Assembly: GCA_037178675.1 (NCBI GenBank)
Contig: JAYMGJ010000161.1
Location: forward strand, 1-64,000
Direction: 5' to 3'
Source: Scleroderma bovista
Lineage: Eukaryota > Basidiomycota > Agaricomycetes > Boletales > Sclerodermataceae
DNA length: 64,000 bases
The notes below the pieces were generated by a model, which was not told the DNA's origin, did no database searches, and saw only the letters and a program-made list of their open reading frames with translations. Below are positions 2,899 to 13,658 of the stretch, piece after piece. The position numbers and the translations under genes are program-made. Positions within the stretch are counted from its first letter, which is position 1; every line of letters begins with the position of its first letter.

Positions 2899-3500
2899 AT
2901 GGCCTCGAGCTCCTATACTCCAGACACCAACTTGTGGCTGGAGCGGTCACGCCTCAGTGGCATGATCTTGGGAGCTGTCTCATATGGTTGGTTCCATTGC
3001 CTGTAATCTTGGGTTACGGGGAGCCCACTCATCTTTCGACACGTTAGGTATGTTCTTACTTCTGACAGTCCAAGCTGGGACAGCTATCCTCCACCGTAGA
3101 AGAGGTGCACATGGCGTCCAACACCCATACCTTCTGGGCTATATTTGCATCACCTTCGTCTTGGCCATGATAGGATTTGCGGCAAACGTGAAGTACACAG
3201 AGATAATATGGATCGATTTGCGGAACGCACCGGGAGGGCCAGCTGCTTTGATCCGAGATGAATTGAGCTACTGGATCAATGTCATGACCATGGCCTGGTA
3301 TGTCTAAGACCGATGCGATCATTTACAATATTTACAAACAAGTCCAGCTACTACATCATGGAATGGTTCATGCAAGCCCTCTTGGTATGCATGTTCCGGA
3401 TTGCCTGTGTGGTGAAAGTTGACGTTCGGAATTAGTTTCACCGATGTTTCGTAATCTTTGGCGGAGCGACATATATTGCAATACCCATGGGTATCCTTTT

Positions 3501-3505
3501 ACTTG
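3501..3505. repeat. Target-site duplication ACTTG, left copy
   Basis: ACTTG directly precedes the LTR start TGTCAG at 3506 and is repeated exactly at 11593-11597. Five bases is the usual target duplication for Ty3/gypsy integrases. Confidence 0.93.
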
Positions 3506-4195
3506 TGTCAGAACCGTTTCCTCCGACGAACTCCGACGCAAGCGGAGTTAAGTGCGAAGGGTTGTCGACGACAGGTGGAGGAGATGCGGAAGGGTTTGAG
3601 GACTTGGCTTCAGCGTATGTGCTGCGCCCTTGCGATACCTGCGTCCTCGTATTTCGGAGGACTAAGGGACAGAGAGACGGAGGTCCGACGAAGGTCGGAG
3701 TTGCCAGAAGGCAGAGGAGACAGAGGAGGGCAGAGGAGAGTTCGCGGGAGGTATTCAAGCTGATATTCGAACTGAGGGACAATCCCCTCAGCGTGCGGAG
3801 TACTTATACTTTACATCGGGAATGTACAGTAACCGAGAAGCGGAGAGAAACACAGCGGAGACGTAGGTAAGAGTCTGCGGATGACAAACGGATGAGTAAC
3901 ATACACGGAACGGAGATCAGTGATAAGCGTAACGGATCAAAAGGTTAACGGATCACAGCTATGAGTAATCATATCTAATCTAAAACGGGAACAAAGGAAA
4001 CAGGAACAGAGACGGAACGGAAGCATACGATAACCGGAGGCATAGGCGCGGAACTATATACCAAAAGGAGACGGAGCGTCAATAGTCGGAGCGGAGATGG
4101 ATACATAGCGTCGGAGGTGTGCGATTACGATCGGACTTGAGTTTACAACAGACTAGAGGCCTTGCGGAGTCACGAGGCGTCACGCGGTCGTGACA
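3506..4195 (-). repeat. Long terminal repeat (3' LTR in element orientation)
   Basis: 690 bp, starting TGTCAGAACCG and ending GGTCGTGACA, with short terminal inverted repeats TGTCA/TGACA. It matches 10903-11592 with no difference that I could find. It interrupts the fourth coding exon of the host membrane-protein gene. Confidence 0.95.
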
Positions 4196-4198
4196 GTA

Positions 4199-4208
4199 TC
4201 CCCCCTTC
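4199..4208 (-). other. Polypurine tract of the retrotransposon
   Basis: On the element strand this reads GAAGGGGGGA and lies three bases before the 3' LTR start. Its purine content and position are what is expected for the RNase H-resistant primer of plus-strand DNA synthesis. Confidence 0.8.
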
Positions 4209-4313
4209 AGGGCCTGAACCCTTGAGGGCCTTTGTGCGTGTGGACTTCGCGATTTTGGCATTGTTCTGCTGAGATAAGCTTTTGATCGGAGTTCGGAATT
4301 TACCGTGGGCGCG

Positions 4314-4320
4314 TATAAGA
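4314..4320 (+). promoter_or_regulatory. TATA box of the antisense gene
   Basis: TATAAGA lies 59 bp upstream of ATG 4373, inside the element's internal region and outside the LTR. The spacing allows a transcription start near 4345 and a short 5' UTR. It suggests that the antisense gene has its own promoter. Confidence 0.5.
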
Positions 4321-4372
4321 GTGCGACGCATGTTGTCCGCATTGTTCAAACACCTTGTCCTTCTACCACAAC

Positions 4373-5664
4373 ATGGCTTCCCAACACACCACACCCATCC
4401 CCGCCGAGAACCAGCAACGCGACTGGAAGGAAGCGGAAGACCACGAGCTGGTCACCGACTCTGAAGACGACGAGGCCGACGCAACGGCGAAGTTCGTGGA
4501 GCGCGAGCGGAGAGAAGTAGCGAGGAAGGCGGCGGAAGCAGAGCAGCGACGAAAGGTAGAGGAGGCGCGAGCGGAAGTGCAGAGGAGGAAGGAGGTGCGT
4601 GGCGAACGCACTGTTCGCAAGGTAGTACTGACGCGAAGGCGACATGGCAGGCACGCAGGGCCGAAGAGGCTCGCAAAGCGGAGGAGGCGAGAGCAGAGGC
4701 GGAGCGCAAGGCGGAAGAAGAGGCGAAGGCGGAAGCAGCGCGTAAAGCGGAGGAGGAACGGAAAGCAGAGGAAGCGCGAGAGCGCGAGAAGCGGATCGAG
4801 GCGCTGCAAGAGGCGCATATAGAGCGACAGAGGCAGGAGTTCGAGGCGCGGAAGGCGCTGGGGCAGCAGCGGCGGTTACAGGCGCGAGCGGAGTCTATCG
4901 CGGCTACACAAGGTAGCGGAGAGGGGACGATGGCGGCGCCAACAGTGACGACAGCGGTGAGGCGTTCTGCCTGCGTGAGGTGCCGGGAACACCTCAACAA
5001 CCCGATTGGGTGTGTGGCTCAGGCGAGCTCGAAGGCGACGGCCTGTGCACGCTGCCAGGCTGCACGCAAATCGTGCTCGTGGAGCACGGCAGGGAAGGCT
5101 GCGGAGGCGTCGACACCAGCGGGGAGCGCGACGGAGGGAAGTGGGAAGCCGGTGGAGAAGCGCGCGACGAAGAGGAGGTCGAGGACCGCGACGAACACGT
5201 CGCCAAGGGGCGGAGAGAAGCGCAAGAAGACCCGTACGACGACGGAGGAGGGGGAAGACGAAGAGGAGATGTTTGGGGTCCCGAAGGCGATGGCGGAGGA
5301 GCAGCGCGACGCGCTGGGTATGCTTACCCAGTCGCTAGCGCAGCTGTCGGAGCGCTTGGCAGCCTCCGAGGCGCGGGAGATCGAGAGGCTCGAGATCGAG
5401 CGAGAGCGCTTGGCGCTCGAAAGGAGGCGGTCGGCGAGGGAGGACGAGAGGGTGGAGATGGAGAGGGCTCGATTGGAGATCGAGCAACAGCGGGCGGAGG
5501 ACATGTGGCGCCTTGGCACGTTGGTGCGGGCGCCCTTTGTCCAAGGGTCGTCGACAGGGTCGACGCGGAGGGAGTTGGAGGCGGCGAAGGCGACCGAGGT
5601 CGAGAAAGGAGCGGAGGCGGACGATGAAGATGGTATGGCCGACGCGGAGGGAGAGGATGACTGA
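4373..5664 (+). CDS. Antisense accessory gene of the retrotransposon: coiled-coil, cysteine-motif protein (411 aa)
   Basis: No known family recognised. The gene runs opposite to gag-pol. Exon 1 (4373-4594, 74 codons) and exon 2 (4651-5664) are separated by a 56-base intron with a GTGCGT donor, TACTGAC branch site and GGCAG acceptor. Splicing changes the frame and joins one charged coiled coil into another. The N terminus is acidic (residues 1-50). Alanine-, glutamate- and arginine-rich heptad-like sequence covers about 50-160. Six cysteines follow at about 182, 185, 195, 206, 209 and 216 (C-x2-C-x9-C-x10-C-x2-C-x6-C), suggesting a metal-binding motif. Then come basic clusters such as KRATKRRSR (possible nuclear signals), an acidic patch, a second coiled coil (about 285-360) and an acidic tail. 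The frame is open throughout while the opposite strand carries no known domain. It converges tail-to-tail with pol, 113 bp apart. A nucleic-acid-binding or regulatory role is inference only. Confidence 0.72.
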
Positions 5665-5777
5665 CGGACTAACTGCATATATTTTTTTTACTTTTGTACT
5701 ACCGTTTTTGTTATTTGAATGGAGTATTTTTGCGGATTTGTAAGATATCGGAGTGAGTTCGGATGTGGCAGGATGAT
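5665..5777. terminator. Convergent 3' end region between antisense gene and pol
   Basis: A short AT-rich spacer with a long T run (about 5680-5715) separates the two convergent stop codons. It probably holds the antisense gene's 3' UTR and polyadenylation signals. No precise signal was identified. Confidence 0.3.
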
Positions 5778-8700
5778 TTAGGCGGACTTGTGCGGACCAG
5801 GTTTGCCTGGGTACTTGTGATGGAAATCTTCGACGAGCTCCGACGCATGGTCGAGCTCAGTGGCAAGGAGCCACGATGTTTCTTCATCTGTACCGGCGTA
5901 GCCAGCCCAGCGGACTAAGTAGAGGAGTTGGCAGTGGCGTCTTCTGCGGTCGATCTTGGAGTCTAAGATTTCTTCGACTTCGTATTCGACTTCTCCGTCG
6001 ACTTCGATCGGAGGTGGCGGAGATTGGACGCGATTGGGAATACTGCTTTGGTGGGAGGTCTCGAGTTGAGACACGTGGAATACTGGGTGCACGGACTTCA
6101 TGGTGTCGGGAAGTCGGAGCGTGAAGGAGAGCGATCCAGGTTTGGCTATTATTTCGAAGGGTCCGAAATTCTTGTCGGAGAGCTTCTTGGAGGGGCGCGT
6201 AGACCTGAAATACTTTGCTTTCACATAGACTTGATCACCTATCTTGAAATCCGGCGGAGTTGATCTTTTCGCATCTGCGGGGCCTTGGTAGCGCTGTTGC
6301 GCAAGGGCCATCTCAGAGCGGAGGAACTCATGGAGTTCTTTGAGGTCGGAGGTATATTCTTGAGCGCGGGAAGAACTGAGGCCCAAGTCGGAGTTGACTG
6401 CGATGTCGGGGTGGTAGCCTTTATTAGCGAAGAAGGGTGAGACACCAGTGGTTGCGCTAGGGGAGTTATTAAACGCGAACTCCGCAAGTGGGAGGAGTTC
6501 GGCCCAGTTGTCTTGTTGATAATTGCAGTAGATTCGGAGGTACTGCTCGAGTGTTTGGTTCGTCCGCTCGGTTTGACCATCTCCTTCTGGGTGATAGCCA
6601 GAGGTGAAATGTAAGGTCATTCCGAGTGCTTTTCCGAGTGATCGGAAGAAGTGAGAGACGAACTCCGAACCTCTGTCGGAGGTGACATGGGTGGGTACTC
6701 CGTGTTTGGAAAACACATGCGCGACGAAGAGCTTGGCAAGCTCAGGGGAAGTGATGGTGTCGTAGGTCGGAATGAATATTCCTTGCTTCGAGAGGCGGTC
6801 CACGACGACTAGGATGGAGGTGAATCCATCGGAAGAAGGTAGTTGCTCGATGAAGTCCATGGATATGGAATGCCATGGGCGAGCGGGGATCGGGAGTTGT
6901 TTTAGTAGGCCGTAGGGTCTGTGCCTAGGGACCTTAGCACGTCCGCAGGATGTGCAGGAACTTACGTAGTCTTTTACGAAGGTGCGGACACCTGGCCAGG
7001 TATATTCCCGGCGGACTAGTTCCAAAGTGCGGTTCTGGCCGAAGTGGCCGGAGAGCGGATGGTCGTGCTTGTAGCGGAGGACTCTGAGGCGGAGGTCGTT
7101 GGTGTCCGGCACGTAGATCCTATCATCAAGGCGGAGCAAGCCAGCGGAGTCCGTTGACCACCGAGAATCGGATGAGTCGGACTTGTGACTGAGCGCGACG
7201 GGATCAGAGGGGAGGGCTGCGAGGATGTCTTTGTGGAGTTGTTCCACGTCGACGAGGATGGCAGCGCGGATTGCCGGAGTGAGGAGAATGGTTGCCCTAA
7301 GGGAGGACGCGAGTTGTTCTTGGGTGAACATGGGTCGGAGGTTGTGTGGGTTGACCCGAGCGTAGTCCCTATCCCCCTCTTTTGGGTAGACGTCCCAGCG
7401 TCGAGTGAGGGCATCGGGTTTAGCTCCGAGGCGTCCAGGGCGGAAGCGGATGGCGAGGTTGAACTGGGAGAGATACTCCGACCAGCGGGCTTGACGCCGA
7501 GTCAAGACCTTGGAGCTGGAGAAATACTCCAAATTCTTGTGGTCAGTGACCACGTCGACCGGAGTGGCGGAGCCCTCAAGGTAGTGTCGCCAGTGCTTGA
7601 AGGCCTCGAAGATGGCCAAAAGCTCCTTGTCATGGGTGTCGTAGTTGAGCTCAGGGGCGGACAGAGTCCGCGAATAGTATGCGACAGGGCGGAGGACCTC
7701 GTCGGAGCCAGTGATGGAAAGGATTCCAGCAATGGCGTAGTCCGAAGCATCGGTCTCCACAGTCAGCGGAGCGTCAGGGACCCAGTGGGTAAGGATAGGA
7801 GCGGAGGTGAAGGCCTTCTTCAGGAGGTTAAAGGCGGAGCGACAGTCCTCACCAAAATTCCAAGGAATGTTTTTGCGGGTAAGCCGCGTGAGAGGTACGA
7901 CGATGTCGGAGTAGTTGAAGATGAAACGACGGTAGAAATTCGCAAAACCGAGGAAGGACTGGATGTCCTTTACCTTGCGGGGTTCTGGCCAGTCGGAGAT
8001 GGCTTTGACTTTGTCGGCGGACATGGAAAGGCCATCGGGGGAGAGGCAGAAGCCCAGGTATTCGGTGGAGGTGGTATGGAATTCGCACTTCTCTGGCTTA
8101 GCAAAGAGATTATGCTTGCGGAGGCGTCGGAGGACTTCGCGGACATGCTGTTGATGCGATTCGATGTCTTCGGAGTAGATAAGGATGTCGTCTAGGTAGA
8201 CGACAACACAGACATCAAGCATGTCGGAGAGAATGCTGTTAACAAATCGCTGGAAAGCCGCGGGAGCATTGGTCAAGCCGAAAGGCATGACATTCCACTC
8301 GAAGGAACCATACCGCGTGCGAAACGCGGTCTTCCATTCATCCCCTTCAGCGATGCGGACCAAGTGATACGCGTGGCGGAGATCGATCTTTGAGTAGATC
8401 TTTGCCTTGCTGGGGGAATCGAGGAGGTCGGAGATGAGAGGGAGTGGGTAGCGGTCTTTCTTTGATATTTTGTTCAGTCCTCTGTAGTCGACGCAGAGGC
8501 GGAGTGATCCATCCTTTTTGCGTACGAACAGGACAGGAGCTCCATGAGCGGAGGTCGACTGTCGAATAAAGCCGTAGGAGAGGTGCTCGTCGATGAATGT
8601 GCGGAGCGCCCCTAATTCAGTCTGTGAAAGGGAGTACACAGTGCCCAGTGGAGGACTAGCGCCTTCCTCCAAATCGATTCGGAGATCATACTCGCGATGC

Positions 8701-8924
8701 GGAGCGAGCGTGGTAGCTTTTGCCTTGCTGAAGACGTCAGCGAAGTCATGGTAGACTTCTGGCACAGCGGAGAGATTGGGAGAATCGACAGGAGTGGCAG
8801 CGGAGGCTGAGCGGAGCTTCGCTTCTTCTGGGCGGATGTACAGCGTGAAGTTGGTAGATCCCGTGAGTTTGCAAGCGCGCGCGAATGCAGCAGCGCCTAT
8901 CAGCGAAACGTAGGGAGCGGTCAA
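5778..8924 (-). CDS. pol: Pol: reverse transcriptase-RNase H-integrase-chromodomain polyprotein part
   Basis: Copies the element RNA into DNA and integrates it. From the first residue shown (a TTG codon at 8924, not a true start), the reverse transcriptase covers about 130-300, with catalytic YLDD at 243-246. RNase H follows with D392, E434 and D461. The integrase zinc motif is H622/H627/C657/C660. The integrase core has D690, D750 and E786, with exactly 35 residues between the last two. A C-terminal chromodomain at about 985-1045 begins EVEEILD and contains YLVRWAGY. All key residues are present. The frame is open upstream of 8924 to about 9045 and differs by one base from the protease frame. 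Expression therefore needs a frame change between protease and RT, or this copy carries an indel. Confidence 0.95.
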   Translation of the reverse strand: MTAPYVSLIGAAAFARACKLTGSTNFTLYIRPEEAKLRSASAATPVDSPNLSAVPEVYHDFADVFSKAKATTLAPHREYDLRIDLEEGASPPLGTVYSLSQTELGALRTFIDEHLSYGFIRQSTSAHGAPVLFVRKKDGSLRLCVDYRGLNKISKKDRYPLPLISDLLDSPSKAKIYSKIDLRHAYHLVRIAEGDEWKTAFRTRYGSFEWNVMPFGLTNAPAAFQRFVNSILSDMLDVCVVVYLDDILIYSEDIESHQQHVREVLRRLRKHNLFAKPEKCEFHTTSTEYLGFCLSPDGLSMSADKVKAISDWPEPRKVKDIQSFLGFANFYRRFIFNYSDIVVPLTRLTRKNIPWNFGEDCRSAFNLLKKAFTSAPILTHWVPDAPLTVETDASDYAIAGILSITGSDEVLRPVAYYSRTLSAPELNYDTHDKELLAIFEAFKHWRHYLEGSATPVDVVTDHKNLEYFSSSKVLTRRQARWSEYLSQFNLAIRFRPGRLGAKPDALTRRWDVYPKEGDRDYARVNPHNLRPMFTQEQLASSLRATILLTPAIRAAILVDVEQLHKDILAALPSDPVALSHKSDSSDSRWSTDSAGLLRLDDRIYVPDTNDLRLRVLRYKHDHPLSGHFGQNRTLELVRREYTWPGVRTFVKDYVSSCTSCGRAKVPRHRPYGLLKQLPIPARPWHSISMDFIEQLPSSDGFTSILVVVDRLSKQGIFIPTYDTITSPELAKLFVAHVFSKHGVPTHVTSDRGSEFVSHFFRSLGKALGMTLHFTSGYHPEGDGQTERTNQTLEQYLRIYCNYQQDNWAELLPLAEFAFNNSPSATTGVSPFFANKGYHPDIAVNSDLGLSSSRAQEYTSDLKELHEFLRSEMALAQQRYQGPADAKRSTPPDFKIGDQVYVKAKYFRSTRPSKKLSDKNFGPFEIIAKPGSLSFTLRLPDTMKSVHPVFHVSQLETSHQSSIPNRVQSPPPPIEVDGEVEYEVEEILDSKIDRRRRHCQLLYLVRWAGYAGTDEETSWLLATELDHASELVEDFHHKYPGKPGPHKSA

Positions 8925-9499
8925 CTGAGGCGAGTCGGAGTCAGAGGGCGGAGATGAGTCCTCAGGTGGCGGAGCCGTGGGGCAGTCGCAGAGGCGGACT
9001 CGACAGAAGGAGGTACCGGGGATGCGGGCATTCGCAGTGTGCCTTTACGGAATTCGATGTGGCCCAAAACCCAGTCAATCAACGGATTGTAGTGGGTGAG
9101 CCAGCTATGTCCGAGGACCAGCACGCAGGAGGAATCCAGCGGAGTTACGTAGAATGTTTCGGAGTTGACTTCGCCTGTGGAGAACTGAATGTCGAGTTTG
9201 ATGGCTTTAGTAATGAAGGTGTTCGTAGAACCGTCTAGGAGGCGGAGTTCAAGCGGAGCGATTGCGTAGGTTTCGAGAGAGTGTTTATTAACAAATTTGC
9301 TATCTATGAAACAGTGGCTAGAGCCAGAGTCAACGAGAGTGGAAACAGGAGGAGTAGCGACAGGGGACGTAATCGTGACGGAGGGCATAAGGGAGTTGGG
9401 ATCGGAGAGAGCGGACGCGTTGAGGCGTAACTCCGTAGGTGCACAGTCGGAGTCAACGCAACCCCCAGCTTGTGCGGAGTTCTGGGAGCTGCTGTCTAA
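8921..9499 (-). CDS. Protease ORF of the retrotransposon
   Basis: Retropepsin-type aspartic protease that matures Gag-Pol. The active-site triad is in LVDSGSSHCFID (DSG), followed by LLDGS and a hydrophobic VLGHSWL near the end of the domain. The ORF is open from the gag stop region and lies in the -1 frame relative to gag, so translation probably enters by ribosomal frameshifting at 9499-9505 and not from the internal ATG at 9388. It ends at a TGA at 8921-8923 after a proline/serine-rich linker. Meanwhile the RT frame is already open one base over, giving a roughly 120-bp overlap. Confidence 0.8.
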   Translation of the reverse strand, partial: LDSSSQNSAQAGGCVDSDCAPTELRLNASALSDPNSLMPSVTITSPVATPPVSTLVDSGSSHCFIDSKFVNKHSLETYAIAPLELRLLDGSTNTFITKAIKLDIQFSTGEVNSETFYVTPLDSSCVLVLGHSWLTHYNPLIDWVLGHIEFRKGTLRMPASPVPPSVESASATAPRLRHLRTHLRPLTPTRLS

Positions 9500-10857
9500 T
9501 TTTTTGACTCCGCAGCAGCGGGAGTCACGGCCTTGGCAGCGCGGGCCTTGGCCTTAGAGCTCTTGGAGGTGGACTTTGGACAGTCCCTGGCCATGTGGCC
9601 TGGCTGTCCGCAGAACATGCAGAGCTTGTCCTTGATGCGCCGCTGGCGCTCTTCCTCGGTCAACTTGCCATCCTTTCCAAGATGGGCAGGGGTTTCGGAG
9701 GAGGCGGGTTTGGCGCCGGAGGAGCTCTTCGACTTGTCGGAGCTCTTGTTCTTGTTGTCCTTCTCCTTGGTTTTACCCTTGGAGTCGGACGAGGCGGAGG
9801 AGGTGCCTTTGGAGGCGGAGTTGGACGACGAGGAGGTGGAGGTCTTGCTTTGGCGCGCAACTTCAGATTTGCGCTCCCAGTACCTGGCGTCGATGGTCTG
9901 CGCGAGAGTGCGATAACCATCAAGGGTGCGGGGCTTGCCAACGCGAGAGATTTCGTCCTTGATGCGGTCGGGGAGACCGCTGTAGAAAATGTGGCGGAGG
10001 GCGCCATCGCCGTAGCCGCGGACTTGGCCAGCGAGGCGGTTGAACTCAACCACGTACTTGTTGATCTTTTGTCCTTCTTTCATGGACAGGTTGTCCAACT
10101 GATGTTCGGCGTCTCCGACGGGATCGTGCGGGCCGAAGTTGGACTTCAGTTCGGAGACGAACTGGGCGTAGTTGTCCATCCATAGCGGACGGGCACGGGG
10201 ATTGGCGGAGTTGAGTAGGTCCGGTTCGAACCATTCGAGGGCCATGCCCTTTAGGTACGACTGCGCGAAGGTGACCCTAGCGCGGTCGGAGGCGAAAGCC
10301 TTGGGGCGATCCTGAAAGTTCAGTTCGCACTGAACAAGGAAAGCGCGGAGTTTGCGCGGATCGGTCCCGTCGAACGTATCAGGTTCGCGGACTTTGGTGC
10401 GACCAGAAGAGGAGTCGCGGTCGGCAGATGCCGTAGCGACTTTGGTCAGCGCCTGGACCGCTTGTGCGAATAGGAGCAGCGGGTCCGGAGTCGGAGTTGA
10501 GGCGGAAGGGATAGGGGAGTCTGGTAGCGGGACATCTGGCGGGTTGGGAGAAGGCGGGTTGCTATCTCCGCCGCCACCACCATCGCCACCAGGGTAGCTG
10601 TCACCGTAGATATCCAAGGCGTTGTCGAAACGATGCGTGGAGTAAACTCCAGACTCGTTGGGGCGGCGCGGAGCGGGGGTTGGAGTAGTGGGATCGGGGG
10701 CGGGAGCCCCAGGCGGAGTATTGCGATTGGAGAAGGAGAGGAACTCTCCTTCTTCGGCCAAGTCATTTCGGGAAGTGGAGGGCGCATTGAGCGCCTCCTG
10801 GCGCTCTTCGAGCGCACGAGACTGAGCACGGGTAGTTATGATTGAGCGACTAGTCAT
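9496..10857 (-). CDS. gag: Gag structural protein
   Basis: Forms the virus-like particle and binds element RNA. It starts at ATG 10857 (MTSRSIITTRAQSR) and is 453 residues long. A disordered proline/serine-rich N-terminal third precedes a retrotransposon gag domain (about 160-300, with LKGMALEWFEP and NKYVVEFNRLAGQV). A serine/lysine-rich linker follows, then one CCHC zinc knuckle near the C terminus (CMFCGQPGHMARDC, C-x2-C-x4-H-x4-C). It stops at TAG 9496-9498, immediately after a slippery heptamer. The 5' leader from the LTR end to the ATG is only about 45 bases. Confidence 0.93.
   Translation of the reverse strand: MTSRSIITTRAQSRALEERQEALNAPSTSRNDLAEEGEFLSFSNRNTPPGAPAPDPTTPTPAPRRPNESGVYSTHRFDNALDIYGDSYPGGDGGGGGDSNPPSPNPPDVPLPDSPIPSASTPTPDPLLLFAQAVQALTKVATASADRDSSSGRTKVREPDTFDGTDPRKLRAFLVQCELNFQDRPKAFASDRARVTFAQSYLKGMALEWFEPDLLNSANPRARPLWMDNYAQFVSELKSNFGPHDPVGDAEHQLDNLSMKEGQKINKYVVEFNRLAGQVRGYGDGALRHIFYSGLPDRIKDEISRVGKPRTLDGYRTLAQTIDARYWERKSEVARQSKTSTSSSSNSASKGTSSASSDSKGKTKEKDNKNKSSDKSKSSSGAKPASSETPAHLGKDGKLTEEERQRRIKDKLCMFCGQPGHMARDCPKSTSKSSKAKARAAKAVTPAAAESKN
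9499..9505 (-). promoter_or_regulatory. Putative -1 ribosomal frameshift site A-AAA-AAT
   Basis: In the gag frame the sequence reads TCA AAA AAT TAG. The heptamer A AAA AAT fits the X-XXY-YYZ rule. A one-base backward slip gives AAA AAA TTA GAC and enters the protease frame, bypassing the gag stop. I did not identify a downstream stimulatory structure by eye. Confidence 0.6.
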
Positions 10858-10889
10858 GGTTGAGAGTAATTAGCAGGTGTGCAAGAGTG

Positions 10890-10900
10890 AGTTCGAATAT
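10890..10900 (-). other. Self-priming primer-binding site
   Basis: Two bases after the 5' LTR end, the element strand reads ATATTCGAACT. It does not begin with TGG, as a tRNA 3'-end site would. It is perfectly complementary over 11 nt to the LTR segment at 11160-11170, matching the layout known for Tf1-type self-priming. Confidence 0.65.
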
Positions 10901-11159
10901 ACTGTCAGAACCGTTTCCTCCGACGAACTCCGACGCAAGCGGAGTTAAGTGCGAAGGGTTGTCGACGACAGGTGGAGGAGATGCGGAAGGGTTTGAGGAC
11001 TTGGCTTCAGCGTATGTGCTGCGCCCTTGCGATACCTGCGTCCTCGTATTTCGGAGGACTAAGGGACAGAGAGACGGAGGTCCGACGAAGGTCGGAGTTG
11101 CCAGAAGGCAGAGGAGACAGAGGAGGGCAGAGGAGAGTTCGCGGGAGGTATTCAAGCTG

Positions 11160-11170
11160 ATATTCGAACT
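11160..11170 (-). promoter_or_regulatory. Predicted RNA 5' end and self-primer sequence in the LTR
   Basis: The element strand reads AGTTCGAATAT, the exact complement of the primer-binding site at 10890-10900. A TATAAGTA box lies 35 bp upstream, so these are plausibly the first 11 nt of the element RNA, as in Tf1. The start site is inferred. Confidence 0.55.
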
Positions 11171-11197
11171 GAGGGACAATCCCCTCAGCGTGCGGAG

Positions 11198-11205
11198 TAC
11201 TTATA
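11198..11205 (-). promoter_or_regulatory. LTR TATA box
   Basis: TATAAGTA on the element strand, about 30-35 bp upstream of the predicted RNA start at 11170. The same sequence exists in the other LTR. Confidence 0.55.
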
Positions 11206-11592
11206 CTTTACATCGGGAATGTACAGTAACCGAGAAGCGGAGAGAAACACAGCGGAGACGTAGGTAAGAGTCTGCGGATGACAAACGGATGAGTAACATA
11301 CACGGAACGGAGATCAGTGATAAGCGTAACGGATCAAAAGGTTAACGGATCACAGCTATGAGTAATCATATCTAATCTAAAACGGGAACAAAGGAAACAG
11401 GAACAGAGACGGAACGGAAGCATACGATAACCGGAGGCATAGGCGCGGAACTATATACCAAAAGGAGACGGAGCGTCAATAGTCGGAGCGGAGATGGATA
11501 CATAGCGTCGGAGGTGTGCGATTACGATCGGACTTGAGTTTACAACAGACTAGAGGCCTTGCGGAGTCACGAGGCGTCACGCGGTCGTGACA

Positions 11593-11597
11593 ACTTG
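11593..11597. repeat. Target-site duplication ACTTG, right copy
   Basis: Directly follows the LTR end TGACA and matches 3501-3505 exactly. Confidence 0.93.
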
Positions 11598-12177
11598 CGC
11601 ACATATGATGAGGTCATGACGATGGTCGTCGAATCTGCTGCTCTGTATTCCATCGTGGGCATCATTTTCATCATCTCCTTTGCTCTCCACTTGTATGTAT
11701 CTAATCTTGTATTTTTGGCTATCAGTCACATTCAGGTAAGTTTTAAATTACTTCCGGAAGGGCGATGTTCAGATGCCTGTTTCTTATTCAGGCCATTGCG
11801 CAACTTTTCATCATCATCCGTGTTGCTCAGGGACGTGCCTTAGGCTGCGAGACATTTTCCAGTGGGACTCGCCTAGAAACCATGGCTTTTGCTGCGGGAA
11901 AACCGGAAGACGGTGTATTTCAAAGATCACACGAGACTGAAACCACCGCCGTTGGATCATCCACGTCGTGGGGACGAAGTAAAAGCGGAGGGGAAGTTTG
12001 AATCGGATTTAAATTGTGCCTGTTGACCTTTACTTTACTCCGCCTTGCACATCATGTCTGGATTGTGATACCTTTGTCGGTGGCAGGCCTTTCAATTCCC
12101 GTTCTTACTGTAGTAAGTATGTGGGTGGCTGTTGAAAGCTAGTACTTGCCTAGTGCGGACAGGACAAGAAGGGCAGA

Positions 12178-12219
12178 TACTATCGCTCACCAAATACCTG
12201 GCCTCCCCAGATACTTGGC
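12178..12219 (-). repeat. Inverted repeat copy A
   Basis: 42 bp containing ACTATCGCTCACC and CCTGGCCTCCCCAG. It matches the reverse complement of 12960-13001 with about two mismatches. With copy B it brackets a 740-bp interval containing a decayed ORF. Confidence 0.7.
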
Positions 12220-12372
12220 CAATTTCTGAAAACCAAACTATTCCCCTCATAATACTTTTTCTGTACAGTCACAATTCAAGATAAATGTATTCTTAAACTC
12301 TACAAACTTGAATGACGAAGTATTCGTTGAAATAGAAAAAACAGTGTGACGACAAGTAAAGATCACGCTGTG

Positions 12373-12959: not shown

Positions 12960-13069
12960 GCCAAATACCTGGGGAGGCCAGGTATTTGGTGAGCGATAGT
13001 AGAGTCAGGCAGCCACATTTGTCCAATTGAACAAGGACCGTCACTCAATATCATTCTAGAACAAAACTC
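12960..13069 (+). repeat. 110-bp repeat copy B with perfect hairpin
   Basis: Identical, as far as I can see, to 13549-13658. It begins with a near-perfect hairpin of 12-base arms, CCAAATACCTGG and CCAGGTATTTGG, around GGAGG. It ends at AACAAAACTC, after which the two copies diverge abruptly. Confidence 0.85.
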
Positions 13070-13548: not shown

Positions 13549-13658
13549 GCCAAATACCTGGGGAGGCCAGGTATTTGGTGAGCGATAGTAGAGTCAGGCA
13601 GCCACATTTGTCCAATTGAACAAGGACCGTCACTCAATATCATTCTAGAACAAAACTC
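13549..13658 (+). repeat. 110-bp repeat copy C with perfect hairpin
   Basis: Direct copy of 12960-13069, 589 bp downstream. Sharp divergence on both sides marks the unit ends. No coding potential. Confidence 0.85.

Follow-up and report, generated by a model that had tools for sequence, protein, structure and literature searches.

The window analyzed, a stretch of 64,000 nucleotides of the Scleroderma bovista genome, contains a Ty3/Gypsy chromodomain element at positions 3506-11592 (8,087 bp) with gag-pol on the minus strand. In the gag-pol sense, the 5′ LTR is located at 10903-11592 and the 3′ LTR at 3506-4195, both on the minus strand. The 3′ LTR is 690 nt long with the ends TG...CA and contains 16 CGGAG/CTCCG words; the 5′ LTR is identical to it at 690 of 690 positions. 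The element is enclosed by copies of a 5 bp target-site duplication, ACTTG, at 3501-3505 and 11593-11597. On the minus strand, gag (9496-10857) carries a CCHC-type motif spotted by eye, an ORF between gag and pol (8921-9388) was assigned to the protease region from its position only, and pol (5778-8924) encodes RT, RNase H, integrase and a chromodomain at about 5817-5984.

By eye, positions 2899-3505 and 11593-12003 seem to belong to one host gene that is split by the element, with ACTTG duplicated; for the piece 2984-3304 in the left flank no Pfam match was obtained. Short repeats, both inverted and direct, occur to the right of the element at 12178-12220, 12960-13069 and 13549-13658 and perhaps represent another small mobile element.

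Structure of the antisense gene

Between pol and the 3′ LTR, a spliced gene of 411 codons plus stop is located on the plus strand, antisense to gag-pol. Exon 1 (4373-4594, 74 codons) begins with the ATG at 4373 and carries a DW...LVTDSEDDE motif, and exon 2 (4651-5664) contributes 337 codons and the stop codon. They are separated by a phase 0 intron of 56 nt (4595-4650) with a GTGCGT donor, a branch-like TACTGAC at 4626-4632 and a GGCAG acceptor. Unspliced, the frame from the ATG at 4373 ends with the stop of the ORF closing at 4822. Both the gene and the canonical intron fusing two frames had been described in an earlier note made from the sequence of this region, and the coordinates as well as all three splice signals were recovered when re-derived. 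The splice was given there as 4594-4651, which is right for the junction, but these numbers denote the flanking exon bases.

The own TATA box that had been proposed at 4314 was found as TATAAG on the plus strand (4314-4319). It is internal to the element, outside the LTR, and is regarded as the candidate promoter of the gene. In 27 of 34 sequences scanned, a TATA is located 54-70 nt upstream of the ATG; two of the others have a start but no TATA by the pattern used, and in five no start was found.

Copies in the genome, intron retention and selection

A DNA search of the genome with the antisense gene resulted in at least 48 matches with 70-100% identity, and 28 copies were compared. The intron is readable in 26 of these and is always 56 nt long, of the form GTG...CAG and with CTGA[CT]; the donor variants are GTGCGT, GTGAGT, GTGTGT and GTGCAT. 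The exceptions are C97, which is deleted across the intron, and C237, which is only partly mappable. The spliced frame is open through its stop in 13 copies, open to the limit of the slice in two (C155 and C803) and broken by stops, frameshifts or both in 12, with C97 standing outside this count. The presence of the intron in many near-identical copies would be expected if it is not recognized in the genomic RNA.

In the introns of three diverged copies (L026 on C742, L027 on C278 and L028 on C567), CpG appears depleted, with changes from CG to TG or CA that look like the aftermath of cytosine methylation. Two further copies, L029 (C155) and L031 (C354), are about 94-95% identical to the window from the LTR end to the ATG and about 73-78% identical in exon 2. 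They are mosaic copies and perhaps recombinants.

Codon and dN/dS tables were compiled for 17 of the 28 copies and 14 chosen pairs, all DNA-level tests being made within one genome. Between the window and C689, which are 12.5% apart and whose 411 codons are free of stops in both copies, codon positions 1, 2 and 3 of exon 2 differ at 5.0, 7.4 and 21.4%, and the intron differs at 28.6%. The intron interior diverges about as fast as third codon positions, while the splice signals and the length are kept. The dN/dS of this pair is 0.14 (bootstrap 0.10-0.20). Computing dN/dS across copies had been suggested in the earlier note; across the 14 pairs it amounts to 0.14-0.53 in the spliced plus frame, below the value of each of the other five frames in 14 of 14, as for a conserved coding frame. 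On the DNA side, this answers the refuting condition named in that note. The top value of 0.53 belongs to the pair C155-C546, of which C546 is broken. The aliased minus frame has values of 0.20-0.72 with stops in every pair, and the remaining four frames have 0.73-2.39. Judged by these substitution patterns, the spliced frame is under purifying selection and has the codon-position signature of a coding gene. These genomic comparisons strongly support the view that the element possesses a real, spliced antisense gene.

The possibility that the antisense RNA alone matters, forming dsRNA with the genomic RNA while the frame is incidental, is strongly disfavored by the same data and is considered very improbable. 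Antisense transcripts are described as able to act as RNA (PMC7264820), but a dN/dS of 0.14-0.53, conserved splice signals and invariant cysteines (see below) argue against it.

Homologues in related families

A protein search of the same genome revealed 81 matches, of which 28 are distant (31-41% identical). From these relatives a family II (L036, L038, L039, L040, L043) and a family III (L037, L041) were distinguished from family I, to which the window element belongs. Because L041 and L052 come from the same element (C178), family III is represented by two elements. L051 covers the pol side of C554, an element whose antisense gene is known from the search match alone.

In 32 of 36 sequences, pol is found on the strand opposite to the antisense gene, the two lying tail to tail; in the remaining four, the stretch examined contains no pol match. 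In families II and III it stands tail to tail with the chromodomain end of pol, and thus homologues do sit antisense in other chromodomain elements of the same genome, a point that the earlier note had marked for checking. Their start exon carries the DW motif, and an upstream TATA is present in five of seven sequences, being absent by the pattern used in L038 and L040. The intron lies directly before the cysteine domain, unlike in family I, with splice sites read by eye. In families II and III, the pol C-terminus shares about 69-78% identity with that of the window, whereas the antisense proteins reach about 25-34% identity between families in the alignment; the antisense protein therefore evolves much faster.

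In family II, dN/dS is 0.13-0.23 for six pairs, L040 not being among them. L040 and L036 differ in frame at 14, 11 and 59 of 204 codon positions 1, 2 and 3, respectively. In family III, dN/dS is 0.19 for the single pair L037-L041. By sequence homology, this genome harbors the gene in three or more related families of chromodomain Ty3/Gypsy elements. A possible further family is indicated by L042 (C36:71000-73200) and matches on C8 and C480. L042 is 41% identical to family I without clear family membership, and GCGGAG is 6.6x enriched in the 2.2 kb examined.

This distribution also bears on a captured host transcription-factor gene, taken up once and since carried as a passenger that does nothing for the element. 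Fungal hosts do have a family of Zn2Cys6 factors, and retroelements are known to capture genes (PMC7264820), but the homologues occupy the same place in three diverged families, with selection in each. Such a capture is disfavored and has very little probability.

Successive searches of public protein collections resulted in 59, 311 and 495 matches. All named proteins among the matches listed (the best 120 of 311 and the best 120 of 495) are hypothetical proteins of Scleroderma citrinum, with six in the 59-match search, three more among the best 120 of 311 and none among the best 120 of 495. The unnamed proteins among the matches listed originate from JGI or ENA metagenomes.

Domain structure of the antisense protein

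A long N-terminal helix is predicted for exon 2 at 4654-4911 (AlphaFold model residues 2-87). The six-cysteine motif C-x2-C-x9-C-x10-C-x2-C-x6-C that had been noticed before was located at residues 182-216 (4972-5076, plus strand). It is followed by a basic tract, SPRGGEKRKK (5200-5229), which may serve as a nuclear localization signal, and by a C-terminal long helix that is probably a coiled coil (5284-5538, model residues 212-296), all on the plus strand. The six cysteines are invariant in 13 of 13 proteins of alignment A1, and the aligned full-length proteins share the cysteines, the SPRGGEKRKK tract and the coiled coil. In alignment A2 only two cysteines are invariant because five metagenome proteins (P0104, P0106, P0110, P0127 and P0131) start inside the cysteine domain and miss the first cysteines or more.

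The Zn2Cys6 signature is C-x2-C-x6-C-x5-12-C-x2-C-x6-8-C. The spacing of L041 in family III (x2, x6, x11, x2, x6) fits it. Families I and II do not match the signature at the gap between cysteines 2 and 3, which comprises 9 and 8 residues, respectively, instead of 6. Foldseek searches with the family III model returned Zn2Cys6 domains in 13 of 13 PDB matches and likewise in 15 of 15 VIA rows. For the family I model, five of six matches were Zn2Cys6 domains, and the row with the top Z was a spliceosome helix. Over the six-cysteine region, the AlphaFold models match Zn2Cys6 domains exclusively, but the E-values of 0.09-3.5 are weak, and the pLDDT of the cysteine domain is about 60-79.

Among Pfam domains, Zn_clus was matched most often, by 9 of 30 members with E ≤ 1 (best E 6.3e-4) against 2 of 30 for the next domain, but no recorded score reached its cut-off of 21 bits, the best being 19.7 (P0143). 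The window protein itself had no Zn_clus match; its sub-threshold matches to DUF2244 and ASFV_J13L were regarded as noise from coiled-coil or low-complexity sequence. When PDB sequences were searched with a profile (A3), four other proteins with E 0.19-5.7 and no Zn2Cys6 chain were returned. The sequence-level link to Zn2Cys6 is weak, and the case rests on the cysteine spacing, the models and the words described below. Together these point to a Zn2Cys6-like DNA-binding protein encoded by the antisense gene.

CGG-core word arrays

Each family has its own CGG-core word, which is distinguished by the bases flanking CGG: [GT]CGGAG in family I, TCGG in family II and CCGGA in family III. In the family I element (3506-11592), 127 CGGAG/CTCCG words were counted where 34 are expected, and 111 of the 127 read CGGAG on the strand of the antisense gene. 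TCGG occurs 137 times in family II (63 expected) and CCGGA 76 times in family III (14 expected), both without strand bias. In the family I LTR, 16 CGGAG compare with 2.6 in dinucleotide shuffles, and CGGAG is the most enriched 5-mer there. The words of family I are spread through gag and pol, beyond the LTR. For three host stretches of the window, the counts of CGGAG were 4, 37 and 65 against 4.6, 29.4 and 54.6 expected.

Pol contained more words than its synonymous-codon shuffles in family I (47 vs 21.3), family II (63 vs 32.7; 25 vs 11.0) and family III (24 vs 7.9; 8 vs 3.1; 16 vs 5.5), with p 0.003-0.007, where 0.003 is the least possible. Because the excess survives synonymous shuffling within each gene, codon usage is not its source. 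No excess of CGGAG, CCGA or CCGGA was obtained in four host ORFs treated in the same way. Gag is less enriched (17 vs 8.7 in family I, 10 vs 5.9 in family III). In the antisense gene of family I, the excess is weak in exon 2 (16 vs 11.4, p 0.047), and exon 1 has 1 vs 2.5. Exon 2 has 18 words vs 11.8 in family II and 3 vs 2.0 (p 0.30) in family III.

In length-matched stretches, the top 4-mer z is 8.6, 8.7 and 10.5 in the three families and does not exceed 5.1 in the controls, which are 12 stretches, six of Copia and six of host DNA. The corresponding values for 5-mers are 11.3, 7.4 and 13.4, with controls at most 5.8. The own word is enriched in 4/4 stretches of family I, 6/6 of family II and 3/3 of family III, the latter from two elements. 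The word-table controls comprised 11 stretches, namely one other chromodomain Gypsy element (L050), six Copia and four host. None of the family words was enriched in them (CGGAG 0.1-1.6x, TCGG 0.7-1.3x, CCGGA 0.2-0.8x); the longer word GCGGAG reached up to 2.6x (z 2.8) in host. L050, the single gene-less Gypsy control, belongs to another family and has a chromodomain, but the 6.7 kb examined neither matched one of the three antisense proteins nor contained a CGG word in strong excess. The flanks of CGG are near flat in L050 and host; the Copia element L045 has a mild preference for A at +1 and little C before CGG.

CGGAG is in excess in family III as well (3.2-4.1x), so that families I and III differ mainly in the base preceding CGG and share CGGA. 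Between diverged copies, CGGA sites are retained in small excess over other CG 4-mers (0.665/0.594, 0.593/0.496 and 0.377/0.330). The low CCGGA counts are not interpreted as 'avoidance' of the words of other families, CCGGA being low throughout the genome generally. TCGG stands at 0.4x in family III, a deficit that the controls do not have and that is partly zero-sum with CCGG. At a spacing of 20-21 bp, the family word is repeated directly somewhat more often than expected in families I (window) and III (L037), although the numbers are small.

Comparison with known systems

The VANDAL elements of Arabidopsis are DNA transposons, unlike the LTR retrotransposon described here. They encode VANC, a protein that removes silencing and binds to a short word found in high excess in its own VANDAL family; related families use different words, and the arrays are dense and of one orientation (PMC5735166, PMC10398659). 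Here, too, a protein encoded by a transposable element is accompanied by a family-specific word enriched in that element, and one orientation is shared by family I, not by families II and III. The VANC words lie mainly in noncoding tandem repeats, whereas those described here also run through gag and pol. The DUF1985/DUF287 domains named for VANC (PMC5735166) were absent from the Pfam matches of the antisense proteins; no common Pfam domain was found, and the proteins are regarded as unrelated.

A class of antisense ORFs located between pol and the 3′ LTR, of unknown function, is well established as aORF-3R and is described from plants and from Boty of Botrytis (PMC7264820). The statement in the earlier note that LTR elements seldom carry extra genes was thus too strong. 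The class includes Grande gene23, RIRE2, the Retand TRP28 ORFs and Botrytis Boty brtn. The Scleroderma gene shares the location next to pol on the side of the 3′ LTR and the orientation opposite to gag-pol, and it is present in many copies with conservation at the protein level. It is a variant within this known class, and the paired word array is the surprising part. For Grande, an own promoter and a nuclear product of the antisense gene are reported, and transcription of gene23 was shown (PMC7264820); the TRP28 domain of Retand is predicted to bind DNA (PMC11963269). The gene described here differs in that it encodes a Zn2Cys6-like protein, not TRP28 or Smc, belongs to fungal chromodomain elements, and has a conserved intron and matching word arrays across the element. 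The word 'intron' has 0 occurrences in the main texts of PMC7264820 and PMC11963269, and the former urges that antisense and spliced transcripts be examined. Boty brtn is likened here by position and orientation from descriptions, not by sequence.

For fungal chromodomain Gypsy elements, an 'add. ORF' without known function has been reported (PMC2864245); it is alike by its description and may or may not be the same gene. No published account of a zinc-cluster antisense gene in fungal LTR elements was recognized among titles and the openings of abstracts, which included few subscription papers.

HBZ of HTLV-1 is likewise an antisense gene at the 3′ end of a provirus, with spliced forms and a DNA-interacting coiled-coil bZIP product (PMC6950816). 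It differs by having a bZIP in place of a zinc cluster, a bZIP domain being absent from the Pfam matches of the antisense proteins. Its promoter is in the 3′ LTR and TATA-less, whereas the TATA here is inside the element, and no word array is described for it in the available text of PMC6950816.

Zn2Cys6 proteins typically read CGG triplets, the usual half-site; the zinc module provides specificity, the downstream coiled coil dimerizes, and Lys18 of Gal4 contacts guanines (PMC5559640). With Gal4, Ppr1, Pho7, Leu3 and Put3 the antisense protein shares the six-cysteine module, basic linker, coiled coil and CGG core. It differs in the longer spacing from cysteine 2 to cysteine 3 in families I and II, in the position of the domain in the middle of the protein, in being encoded by a retrotransposon, and in having no recorded score above the Pfam cut-off.

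Proposed function and alternative explanations

It is considered probable that the spliced antisense gene of at least three families encodes a Gal4-like protein that binds the word arrays of its own family and activates or de-silences that family. In this mechanism, the gene would be transcribed from its own internal TATA. The six cysteines would fold into a Gal4-type, Zn2Cys6-like DNA-binding domain, followed by the basic linker and a dimerizing coiled coil. The protein would enter the nucleus and bind the CGG-core word ([GT]CGGAG, TCGG or CCGGA) across the LTRs and the body of its own family, and dense binding would activate or de-silence the copies of this family. The antisense placement would allow the intron to survive retrotransposition and make expression independent of the LTR promoter. 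With VANC/VANDAL as the nearest working precedent, we infer activation or anti-silencing as the direction of the effect; anti-silencing has been shown for VANC itself. Of the regulator roles listed in the earlier note, transcription and silencing are thus favored over nuclear entry and integration by the Zn2Cys6-like domain and the family words.

Three diverged proteins with three CGG-core words, and a gene-less element (L050) without one, suggest self-recognition. A more specific reading, quite possible though short of probable, is that each family's Zn2Cys6 protein reads its own accumulated word and activates or de-silences its own kin, not others, with protein and word co-diverging. As only three families were examined, this co-divergence consists of three points.

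The same gene, domain and word evidence would fit a repressor that limits the transcription or copy number of its own family through the CGG words, and HBZ suppresses HTLV-1 sense transcription (PMC6950816). Against it, the words extend beyond the LTR into gag and pol, a distribution closer to that of a coating or an array for anti-silencing, and the element profits more directly from activation. Neither point is decisive, but a repressor is thought unlikely. About as improbable is a real gene whose protein acts elsewhere or at the LTR only, while the CGG words serve other ends such as RNA packaging, stability, translation, a host factor, or a mutation or conversion bias. In its favor, an RNA-level motif could produce the strong one-strand bias of family I (111/127), and the domain scores lie below the Pfam cut-off. 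Against this explanation, families II and III lack the bias, the excess survives synonymous shuffling, CGG as the typical Zn2Cys6 triplet is common to all three words, and the one gene-less chromodomain element examined has no enriched word. Binding of the family words by the antisense protein, with activation or de-silencing, is the preferred explanation.

Implications

Since the type of DNA-binding domain is recognizable and the candidate target can be read from the element, the function is reducible to a simple binding test. As far as its sequence indicates, the antisense gene would be a clear natural example of how its placement on the antisense strand lets an intron persist through retrotransposition. 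If the self-recognition reading is true, the system would be a convergent fungal retrotransposon counterpart of VANC/VANDAL in plants. If confirmed, LTR retrotransposons would possess a sequence-specific self-targeting system, and the three diverged protein-word pairs would provide material on how a parasite keeps its regulator private.
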